Assembly (NCBI GenBank): GCA_015233135.1
Contig: JADFYH010000013.1
Location: forward strand, 1 to 64,000
Direction of reading: 5' to 3'
Source of the DNA: Deltaproteobacteria bacterium
Lineage (GTDB): Bacteria; UBA10199; JADFYH01
DNA: 64,000 nucleotides
This document shows positions 10,725-51,005 of this stretch, piece by piece. Within the stretch, counting starts at the first letter, position 1. Every line of letters begins with the position of its first letter. A program made the position numbers and the translations under genes. The notes under the pieces were generated by a model. That model did not search any database. It saw only the letters and a program-made list of their open reading frames with translations, and was not told where the DNA came from.

Positions 10725-12005
10725 ATGCAACTCTACCTCACCCTACCCAAACCTGGTGAAACCATCCGCGAAGGGCTTATTATTCAGTGGCTCAAAAAAG
10801 AGGGCGAATTTGTGAATGAGAAAGAGCCTTTGGTGGAACTGGAAACCGAAAAGGCGGTGTTTACCTTTGAATCTCCTTTTCGGGGGGCGCTCAAAAAAAT
10901 TCTGGTTTCCGCTAATGAAAACACTCCCGTGGGAACCAAGATTGCCTTGTTTGAGGTGAATGCCGAAGATGGAGCGAAGTATGAGATGTTGGGAGTGGGG
11001 ATTGTGAGGGGGGAGGGGAGGGAAGAGGGAAGAGGGGAGAGGGAAGAAGGGGAAAGGAAGAGGCCCGAGGAAAGTAGGGCCGAGAAGGGAGAAGAAGTTC
11101 CCCTCTCCTTGGGGAGAGGGCAGGGTGAGGGGGGCCTGCATTCGGAGTTGTTATCCCCCTACCTCCGAAAACTCATTCAAGAAAATCATCTGAGTGAAGA
11201 AGAAGTTTCCAAAATTCCTCACAGCGGTTTTGAAGGAAGATTGAGTAAAGAAGATGTGTTGAAATATTTATCCCCCAAACCGCCTCACTCTTCACTCTTC
11301 ACACTTCACGTCCTCAGCCCCATCCGCCAACGCATTGCAAAACACCTTACCGAATCCATCCACGAAATTCCGCAGGCCGCTACCTCGGTGGAGGTCGATT
11401 TGACTGCAATCATGGAATTTCGAAAACTCAAGTCCGAAGAGTTTAAAAAAAACCAAGGTTTTAGTCTAAGCCCCTTTTTATTCTTTGCCTGGGCGGTGAA
11501 GGACTTACTTCAAAAACTTCCCCGCTGGAATAGCCACTTGATTCAAGAAAATGCCTCACTAAAAATCAAACAATTTCACCGTATTAATCTAAGTTTTGCC
11601 GCTTCCACCCCTCAAGGTTTGATGACACCGGTATTACAGAACGCACAGAATTTAAGCTTCCTTCAGCTGGCTCAAGGCATCAAGGCCTTGGAAGAAAAAG
11701 CGAGATTAGGTCAATTGAGCGTTGATGAGCTTTCGGGTGGAACTTTTCTCATGAATAATCCCGGTGCCTTGGGAGGAAACCGATCCCATCAACTTTTACC
11801 CAAACCTCTGGTAGGAATTGTGGCGCTGAATAAAATCCAAAAAAGGCCTTGGGTACTGGACGAAGGAATTCATATCCGCGAAATCAGCACCTTAGACCTA
11901 AGCTTCGATCATCGGGTTTTTGATGGGGCAGAGGCCATTCAATTGATTGAGGCTTTGAAAGGGTATTTGGAAAATTTTCCATTCGATCTGGTGGAAAGTT
12001 ATTAA
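10725..12005 (+). CDS. 2-oxoacid dehydrogenase E2 (dihydrolipoamide acyltransferase)
   Basis: E2 is the core acyltransferase of the complex. The 426-residue protein has one lipoyl domain (1-80) with lipoyl-lysine K43 in ETEKAVF, a peripheral-subunit-binding domain (~142-182, SPYLRKLI to LSKEDVLKYL) and a catalytic domain (~197-426) ending in the DHRVFDG motif at 395-401. The first linker (~95-138) is unusual: a run of Arg, Glu and Gly encoded by purine-only DNA, followed by VPLSLGRGQGEGG, which is a translated palindromic element. E3 is not nearby, so a dihydrolipoamide dehydrogenase must be encoded elsewhere. Confidence 0.92.
   Translation: MQLYLTLPKPGETIREGLIIQWLKKEGEFVNEKEPLVELETEKAVFTFESPFRGALKKILVSANENTPVGTKIALFEVNAEDGAKYEMLGVGIVRGEGREEGRGEREEGERKRPEESRAEKGEEVPLSLGRGQGEGGLHSELLSPYLRKLIQENHLSEEEVSKIPHSGFEGRLSKEDVLKYLSPKPPHSSLFTLHVLSPIRQRIAKHLTESIHEIPQAATSVEVDLTAIMEFRKLKSEEFKKNQGFSLSPFLFFAWAVKDLLQKLPRWNSHLIQENASLKIKQFHRINLSFAASTPQGLMTPVLQNAQNLSFLQLAQGIKALEEKARLGQLSVDELSGGTFLMNNPGALGGNRSHQLLPKPLVGIVALNKIQKRPWVLDEGIHIREISTLDLSFDHRVFDGAEAIQLIEALKGYLENFPFDLVESY
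11098..11134. repeat. GC-rich palindromic element inside the E2 linker
   Basis: CCCCTCTCCTTGGGGAGAGGG followed by CAGGGTGAGGGGGG matches the order seen at 4099-4155. It is translated in frame as residues ~125-137 of E2, between the lipoyl and subunit-binding domains, where flexible sequence is tolerated. The purine-only stretch upstream (11007-11060) is low-complexity and may have grown beside it. Confidence 0.8.
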
Positions 12006-47233: not shown

Positions 47234-48178
47234 ATGAAAAATTCATTTCTAAAAATCCAAATATTTTCATCGCTGCTGCTTTTTGGCTCTGCCCTACACG
47301 GTGCCGAAAACTGGAATCTTTCTTTAAGCTCCTCGACCCTGGGGGATCCTCAGCGATTATTTTTTAAGGAAGTAGTGGATAAGCAGAAAACCTCTCCCGC
47401 TCTTCTGGAGAAATATGGGAATCTGGTTTTGCCTCCGGTGAGCACGTCGGGCCTTCAAGCTGCTCAGGTCATGGTTTTTTTGGGGAAGGTAGGGGCGCCC
47501 TTGAACAAGATTCAATTGATTTCTCCACCGGGACAAAAAGTCTCCTTGAGTCCAAAGAGTGTGGTTTTGCAAAAAATTCGGGAGGCCGTGATTCAAAAGG
47601 CCGCAGAAATGCACCAAGTAGAACCCAAATCCATTCTGCTGGAAATTAGTGAAGTTCCCGAAGACTTGCCGGCCCCAGACGGTTTTTCTCGCCTGCAAGT
47701 GGAACTGACTTCTCCCTATGTGAAGGCCAATTTTCTGGGTCAAAACGGGGAGATTTTGAAGAGTTCCCAATTCACTGCAAAGGTTTTGATTCGCAGTTCG
47801 GTGCTTCTTGCCAAGAAGGCGCTGATGCCTTCTCAAAGTATTGGCCCCGAAGATTTTGAAGAAAAACAACAAGACCTCGAAAGTATACAGGGCTTGGTGA
47901 GAGGCTTGTCCGAATTAAAAGATGCCCATTGGAATTTGTCTCAAGGTCTCGAAGTGGGATCACTTTTACGGCGGGAATATCTGCAAAAGGCAACGTCTCT
48001 GCAAAAAGGAGCCTTGGTCAGCTTGGTCAAGCGTAGCCCCCAGTTTCAAATCCAAACCTTGGCGCGTGTGAAAGAGGTGTTGGGAAATGGGGAGATGGTG
48101 CTGGTCGAAAATCTGGATACTAAAAAAGAAATTACTGCAAAAACATTGAGTTCAACCGAAGTTGAGGTGGTTCAATGA
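47234..48178 (+). CDS. flgA: Flagellar P-ring assembly chaperone FlgA
   Basis: The 314-residue protein has a signal peptide (LKIQIFSSLLLFGSALHGA), a middle domain and a C-terminal SAF-type domain (about 190-312) with RSSVLLAKKALMPSQSIG, SLLRREYLQKATSLQKG and AKTLSSTEVEVVQ. FlgA guides P-ring (FlgI) assembly in the periplasm. It is longer than the ~220 residues of enteric FlgA. Its stop overlaps the flgH start (ATGA), so the two are translationally coupled. Confidence 0.88.
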   Translation: MKNSFLKIQIFSSLLLFGSALHGAENWNLSLSSSTLGDPQRLFFKEVVDKQKTSPALLEKYGNLVLPPVSTSGLQAAQVMVFLGKVGAPLNKIQLISPPGQKVSLSPKSVVLQKIREAVIQKAAEMHQVEPKSILLEISEVPEDLPAPDGFSRLQVELTSPYVKANFLGQNGEILKSSQFTAKVLIRSSVLLAKKALMPSQSIGPEDFEEKQQDLESIQGLVRGLSELKDAHWNLSQGLEVGSLLRREYLQKATSLQKGALVSLVKRSPQFQIQTLARVKEVLGNGEMVLVENLDTKKEITAKTLSSTEVEVVQ

Positions 48179-49110
48179 TGAAAAAAATATTCAAAGCGTC
48201 GCCTCCAGTAGGGGAATACGTACGTCCTGAGAGTTCTTTAGCAACTGTTCTCTCAGAGCCTGCTCCCAGGAAAACTATTCCCCTACTTTTTTTAGATAAA
48301 ACGCCGCAAAAGTTCATGTCCGCCGCGCTCCTGAGGCTTTTTCGACATTTTATTCCCACTTGTCAAATATCGGGGAGCAATCTCTCCTTTGTCCTCTTTT
48401 TGTCAAGTATGCTCATTCTTCCAGCCTGCGGGGTGGAAATGCAGAAGGCTCCCTTGACGGCCCAGAATCTGGGACGGAGTGCAGAGAATCAGCAGGGTTA
48501 CTTTAATGGGGACAAGGCAAGAGAGACCCAAAAAGATCATGAAAAAAAACAGGGTTCGCTTTGGGTAGACAGTTATTCTGCACGTCTCTATGAAAATATC
48601 CATCGTGCGTCGCGAGTGGGTGATACCGTCACCATCATTGTCTCCGAGCAATCCAGCGGAAAAGATACGGGGAATACGAATACCAGCAAGAAGAATGATC
48701 AGCTCAACACGATTGGTGGCTTGGGTGGACTCTTTACCAAATTGACCACACTGGCCTCGATCTTTAATCCTAGCAATTTAATTCAGGCAAAAACGGATAG
48801 CAAGTTTGAGGGAAAAGGAACGACCGAACAAAAAGGCGAATTGTACGCCAAACTGACGGCAACCGTAACCGAGGTACTTAACAACGGAAATTTGGTCATC
48901 CGGGGAGACAAGCATATTCGTGTGAACAAGGACGATCAGATCCTTGTGGTGGAAGGGGTGGTGCGCCCCTATGACATCGCCGCAGACAACACGATTGCTT
49001 CGACAGCCATAGCGGATGCACGAGTGACTTATTCGGGATTTGGTGTGGTGGCTGAAAGACAAAAACCAGGTTGGTTGACTCGGGCCCTGGATTATATCTG
49101 GCCCTTTTAG
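48175..49110 (+). CDS. flgH: Flagellar L-ring protein FlgH, with inserted N-terminal element
   Basis: FlgH is the outer-membrane L-ring lipoprotein. The lipobox LILPACG places the lipidated cysteine near residue 88, and the FlgH body follows: GSLWVDSYSARLYENIHRA, VGDTVTIIVSEQSSGKDT, RGDKHIRVNKDDQIL, VEGVVRPYDIAADNTI and IADARVTYSG. The normal signal peptide should begin within ~20 residues of the start, but here ~60 extra residues precede the hydrophobic core. About 27 of them are encoded by the palindromic element at 48207-48287. Translation might start at the ATG at 48316 instead (MSAALLRLFRHF), but the ATGA coupling with flgA favours 48175. Confidence 0.88.
   Translation: MMKKIFKASPPVGEYVRPESSLATVLSEPAPRKTIPLLFLDKTPQKFMSAALLRLFRHFIPTCQISGSNLSFVLFLSSMLILPACGVEMQKAPLTAQNLGRSAENQQGYFNGDKARETQKDHEKKQGSLWVDSYSARLYENIHRASRVGDTVTIIVSEQSSGKDTGNTNTSKKNDQLNTIGGLGGLFTKLTTLASIFNPSNLIQAKTDSKFEGKGTTEQKGELYAKLTATVTEVLNNGNLVIRGDKHIRVNKDDQILVVEGVVRPYDIAADNTIASTAIADARVTYSGFGVVAERQKPGWLTRALDYIWPF
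48207..48287. repeat. 81-bp palindromic element inside the flgH start region
   Basis: Perfect 12-bp outer arms, AGTAGGGGAATA (48207-48218) and TATTCCCCTACT (48276-48287), enclose an inner 7-bp stem, CTGAGAG (48227-48233) and CTCTCAG (48250-48256). Length is 27 codons with no stop in the flgH frame. It resembles in-frame palindromic elements such as those of Rickettsia. I found no second copy in the window. Confidence 0.85.
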
Positions 49111-50249: not shown

Positions 50250-51005
50250 ATGCTTACGAAACTTAACGAAATTTCAAATTCTGTAGCCGCAAATCCTCTC
50301 GTGGATAAGGAGAAATCTTCTACAGAAGCTAATACGGAGCAAGCCTGGAAGGCGGCCAAAAAGTTCGAGGCTTACTACATGGGTTTCGTTTATCAAAAGG
50401 GCATGGATTCTATTCCCAAGTCCGAAGATTTTGGAAATTCGGTGAATCAGGAAGTTTATCAGAATTTTTTCAGTCAGGCGATTAGTGATCAGGTGGAAAA
50501 ATCACCGCATGGAATTGGACTGGCTGAAATGATCGTGAAGGGGAAAAAACCGATGACCCCTTCTTTGACTCAGGACTTTAAGCCTCTTGCAGCGCCCGTG
50601 CTTAATAATCCCGAATTTTATCTACCGGCGGCCCGAGTGACTTCCGGGTTTGGGTTTCGGGGAGATCCCTTAGAAGGCGATCAGCGATTCCATCAGGGAA
50701 TGGATCTGGCTTATCCAAAAAGGACCCCGATTCAAGCGGCTGCAGAGGGTAAGGTGGTGTTTAGCGGGAAAAAAGGGGGCTATGGGAATGCAGTGATGAT
50801 CCAACATGATCAAGGTTATACAAGTTTATACGGCCATGCGGATGAAAATTTGGTGAAGGTGGGAGCTCGGGTGAAAAAAGGCGAAGTGATTGCCTATTCG
50901 GGGTCAACAGGTCGCTCAACGGGTCCTCATCTGCATTTTGAGATAAGAAAAGATGGAAAAGCTGTGGATCCCAAGAAGTTGGTGTTTTTTAAAAATAATA
51001 CTTAA
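50250..51005 (+). CDS. flgJ: FlgJ-type rod-binding domain fused to M23 peptidase
   Basis: The 251-residue protein has an N-terminal FlgJ rod-binding domain (~30-98; KKFEAYYMGFVYQKGMDSIP, then VNQEVYQNFFSQAISDQV and HGIGLAEMIVKG) and a C-terminal M23 metallopeptidase domain (~125-245) with HQGMD (148-152) and HLHF (227-230) zinc ligands and HADENLVKVGARVKKGEVIA. Classical FlgJ ends in a GH73 glucosaminidase; here the murein hydrolase part is an endopeptidase instead. It starts 2 bases after the flgI stop, so it is tightly coupled. Confidence 0.9.
   Translation: MLTKLNEISNSVAANPLVDKEKSSTEANTEQAWKAAKKFEAYYMGFVYQKGMDSIPKSEDFGNSVNQEVYQNFFSQAISDQVEKSPHGIGLAEMIVKGKKPMTPSLTQDFKPLAAPVLNNPEFYLPAARVTSGFGFRGDPLEGDQRFHQGMDLAYPKRTPIQAAAEGKVVFSGKKGGYGNAVMIQHDQGYTSLYGHADENLVKVGARVKKGEVIAYSGSTGRSTGPHLHFEIRKDGKAVDPKKLVFFKNNT

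Follow-up and report, generated by a model that had tools for sequence, protein, structure and literature searches.

In the stretch of DNA analysed here (64,000 nucleotides, hereafter the window), flgH is located between flgA and flgI, and its first candidate start shares bases with the TGA stop codon of flgA (Table 1). Read from this start, FlgH begins with MMKKIF, its hydrophobic core does not appear before about residue 68, and the Cys of a lipobox-like LPAC motif is residue 85 (48427-48429). The 72 N-terminal residues have no other match in the same genome. The gene following flgI (50250-51002) encodes a rod-binding (FlgJ-like) N-terminal domain fused to an M23 peptidase domain, which takes the place where a muramidase domain would be.

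An 81-bp hairpin lies in frame close to the start of flgH. A preliminary description, made from the letters of the window, had placed perfect 12-bp outer arms and a nested stem at 48207-48287, and these coordinates are right: the arms form terminal inverted repeats that are complementary at 12/12 positions and spaced by 57 nt, and RNA folds show the nested stem. The 27 stop-free codons that it had reported were also confirmed, the flgH frame being open through the whole element. The minimum free energy of the RNA is -33.0 kcal/mol on the plus strand (z -4.27) and -37.3 kcal/mol on the minus strand (z -4.34), and in either case none of 200 shuffled sequences folded as well (0/200). The run of seven T residues after the 3' arm is absent from the preliminary description.

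Table 1 Features at the flgA-flgH junction (positions in the window).
Feature	Position	Strand	Basis or remark
flgA	47234-48178	+	ORF list; Pfam ChapFlgA, E 2.5e-14
Shine-Dalgarno-like GAGGTGG for starts 48175/48178	48163-48169 (approximate)	+	anti-SD duplex -8.5 kcal/mol
flgH ORF, longest frame, 311 aa	48175-49110	+	ORF list; Pfam FlgH, E 3.5e-56, residues 124-310
Extra segment, edges approximate	48190-48384	+	missing from flgH of three flagellated relatives in the class; codon statistics poor
81-bp hairpin element	48207-48287	+	arms 12/12; z -4.3 on both strands
5' arm AGTAGGGGAATA	48207-48218	+	sequence
Nested stem TCCTGAGAG (48225-48233)/CTCCCAGGA (48263-48271) with loop	48225-48271	+	RNA folds
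Alternative nested stem CTGAGAG/CTCTCAG	48227-48233/48250-48256	+	favoured by DNA fold
3' arm TATTCCCCTACT	48276-48287	+	exact reverse complement of 5' arm
T7 tract, terminator-like	48287-48293	+	directly 3' of stem; first T pairs with A48207
Alternative ATG start and 37-residue leader to lipobox-like Cys	48316-48429	+	in-frame start list

The extended N-terminus of FlgH

A recognisable FlgH was found in only three other members of the class; these proteins are 51-54% identical to that of the window and come from other families, and the comparison is blind to whether the extra DNA arrived in one step. The flgA end and the first flgH start (MMKKIF) have the same position in the window as in the three relatives. 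In all three (3/3), flgH starts at or over the flgA stop codon, which in G023 requires a TTG start codon, and the hydrophobic core follows a few residues on. Compared with these proteins, FlgH of the window has an excess of about 60-65 codons (~180 bp), of which the hairpin accounts for 27; with the 81 bp removed, some 57 residues would still precede the lipobox-like Cys, against leaders of about 20-25 residues in the relatives. A clean 81-bp gap in the relatives' flgH, proposed earlier as a check on the element, was not found, the missing DNA amounting to ~180 bp (48190-48384). Orthologues with the same N-terminal sequence, named earlier as what would make it ancestral, were not found among the three relatives, and as far as these show the sequence is not ancestral. 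The FlgH N-termini of two of the three relatives, G019 and G044 (L022 and L024), have a leader without a clear lipobox Cys, and lipid anchoring of the L-ring protein may vary across the class.

The codon score of 48190-48384 is -0.07, compared with 0.19 for the rest of flgH and with means of 0.21 for in-frame and -0.18 for off-frame gene windows. About 99% of in-frame gene windows score higher, and the value is nearer to those of off-frame windows; gene starts are generally less typical, and 7% of first-65-codon windows score lower. The flgH frame is open across the segment, and each of the other five frames contains 1-4 stops. About 65 extra codons without a stop argue for translation of the stretch, now or in the past. 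It is possible, and we put it forward tentatively, that most of the extra ~180 bp at the junction is not conserved as protein-coding sequence.

The sole strong Shine-Dalgarno sequence at flgH belongs to the starts 48175/48178, with a predicted anti-SD duplex of -8.5 kcal/mol versus -0.4 kcal/mol at 48316; flgA and flgI likewise have no Shine-Dalgarno sequence. Initiation at the ATG at 48316 would yield a FlgH leader of normal size, its 37 residues resembling the 35-residue leader in the distant FlgH of L028. The LPAC motif carries Pro at position -2, which is disfavoured by the usual lipobox patterns. The signal peptide had been thought to be pushed about 60 residues inward, which holds for translation from 48175 when compared with the short leaders of the three relatives. 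The effect on FlgH export that had been expected to follow is unsupported as stated, and export need not suffer because the ATG at 48316 would supply an ordinary leader.

Rarity of the hairpin

A first-order Markov model for the window predicts, per 64 kb, 0.15 inverted repeats that have perfect 12-bp arms 30-60 nt apart; one is observed. The z-score of the 96-nt segment from 48193 ranks 15th among 2,663 across the 64-kb window, which is uncommon, not extreme. Genome-scale hairpin counts were drawn from 451 kb of the 2.6-Mb assembly. This part contains 18 inverted repeats whose arms are 12 bp or longer and 25-70 nt apart; most are pairs of REP-like repeats or intergenic. Judged on pairing alone, the hairpin is notable yet not extreme.

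The feature that raises it above chance is the T-tract immediately 3' of the arm. T6 occurs at just 0.3% of positions, so chance placement right behind the stem is unlikely. On both strands of the 451 kb, eight matches combine a perfect stem of 11 bp or longer with a T-tract behind it. Six of these (five loci) are intergenic short-loop terminators and another is a long-loop hairpin in L060 extending a little way into the 5' end of another gene, the hairpin at 48207-48287 being the only one wholly within an ORF.

These figures bear on the view that the N-terminus of FlgH is an ordinary, fast-evolving, lineage-specific extension or spacer grown by drift, with a palindrome that arose by chance and a hairpin that has no role. 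Such palindromes are not very rare, the fold z-score has only the rank given above, and the N-terminus of FlgH varies within the class, with a clear lipobox lacking in two of the three relatives; nevertheless, this one site unites perfect arms with nested pairing and a T7 that follows immediately, and we regard drift as a somewhat unlikely explanation.

Copy number and resident repeat families

The 2.6-Mb assembly contains the 81-bp element once, with only the self-match rising above background, and the DNA of 48180-48310 gave no other convincing match in its own genome. A search of the genome for the arms, suggested in the preliminary description, revealed no second element, since arms with one mismatch occur at control level (12 matches versus 17 for a mirrored control pattern). 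A lone arm has one further exact copy, at C8:73781; it adjoins a REP-like hairpin, has no partner arm and was attributed to chance. A search of the 45 other genomes from the class did not recover the element, and neither its arms nor its whole sequence matched viral contigs, phages or plasmids. Searches with FlgH recovered only distant FlgH proteins from genome contigs and no match from viral contigs, and no Rfam 15 family exceeded its gathering threshold over the element.

The genome contains an abundant REP-like palindrome, CCCTCTCC...GGAGAGGG, mostly with a one-sided GGGTGAGGG tail (~36 matches in 451 kb; window positions 11102 and 16001, and L044-L063), which sometimes occurs as inverted pairs of 85-93 bp. 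In this genome, the Y1 transposase family PF01797 has a single match (C11:24113-24361), barely above the cut-off, which could be a REP-associated transposase. A further repeat family, GTAACTACTCAGGTA-CCCTTCCAATTGCTGCGGAACTCGC (L068-L076), is often found near a terminator-like CCCCCGAGAAATCGGGGG hairpin.

The preliminary description had set the 81-bp hairpin apart in sequence from the GC-rich repeats of the window, and indeed no similarity was found. Kinship with the REP-like repeats or with a second hairpin family (core GCGGAACT-GCTCAGACAGTCCTCG) was rejected, the best shuffle P being 0.03 in 14 uncorrected comparisons. The pattern AGTARG-N60-84-CYTACTTTTTT matches only the hairpin at 48207-48287 and a 93-bp hairpin at C5:67780 (AGTAAG...CTTACTTTTTTAG); the likeness between the two was dismissed, as their interiors do not match. 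The latter hairpin (L060:7780-7872) and another at C16:5682-5726 (L067) have a common core, GCGGAACTYGCTGCYGCTCAGACAGTCCTCG, but the inverted arms of one are unrelated to those of the other, as though supplied by the site rather than by the element.

There is no evidence for the 81 bp as a mobile or repeated element, and no mobile family can be demonstrated because the hairpin is single-copy, absent elsewhere and unrelated to the REP-like repeats. It shares with the latter the character of a short palindrome, but those repeats are abundant and have no sequence similarity to it. Rickettsia palindromic elements are in-frame palindromes of ~150 bp present in many copies (PMC10969869). Like these and other in-frame MITEs, the hairpin is palindromic and stop-free in frame and would add residues to its host protein; unlike the Rickettsia elements, it is 81 bp long, single-copy and without a family.

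It is unlikely that a MITE-like mobile palindromic element entered flgH in frame near codon 6, leaving a ~180-bp insert that holds the hairpin and a FlgH that bears an extra peptide. Inverted arms, a length divisible by three, an open frame and absence from orthologues would all fit such an event, and AAATAT direct repeats at 48185-48190 and 48365-48370, with a spacing of 180, would bound an in-frame insert; reading across the 180 bp between them gives MMKKISGSNLSFVLFLSSMLILPACG, a standard lipoprotein-like leader. However, a shared 6-mer at the edges of the insert is expected by chance in about 55% of cases, so the AAATAT repeats are not significant, searches of the genome, the class and the viral, phage and plasmid sequences yielded no second copy, and the resident REP-like families show no similarity.

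A terminator-like hairpin at the flgA-flgH junction

The hairpin looks more like a terminator-type structure than a mobile element. As in intrinsic (Rho-independent) terminators and attenuators, a stable stem, G+C-rich in its middle (GGGG/CCCC), is accompanied by a T run on the coding strand and lies between genes of an operon; two of the defining features, the stable G+C-containing stem and the T7 directly 3' of it, are present. In contrast to the short loop of such terminators (~3-10 nt), 57 nt with internal structure separate the outer arms, and the hairpin is situated within an open frame; termination here is putative. The long loop weighs against a firm terminator claim, and the hairpin was not called by a terminator scan. 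No sigma-70-type promoter was found near it, only weak sigma-28/sigma-54 matches, and among the class genomes searched no relative has the sequence.

Tentatively, we favour an explanation in which the flgA-flgH junction has expanded in this lineage and carries a putative terminator/attenuator-like hairpin or the relic of one. The junction would have gained ~180 bp in this lineage, including the 81-nt hairpin and its immediate U-tract. The hairpin may act, weakly or conditionally, as an intercistronic terminator-like structure, making transcription of flgH, flgI and the M23/rod-binding gene lower or conditional, or it may be a relic. Ribosomes from 48175/48178 would run through in frame and melt the hairpin, allowing read-through, and FlgH with a working leader would come from the ATG at 48316 or from a processed long form. 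It is improbable that the hairpin is a translation-sensitive attenuator in the flgH leader frame, melted by flgA-coupled ribosomes so that flgHI are transcribed and ring-protein synthesis follows FlgA translation.

In practical terms, the observation serves mainly as a warning that the annotated start of FlgH may be wrong (48175 versus 48316). An in-frame insertion, if true, would be a further instance in which a signal-peptide region has tolerated selfish DNA. If the hairpin terminates or attenuates transcription, it would represent a small case of control at the boundary of a flagellar chaperone gene and the ring genes downstream of it.
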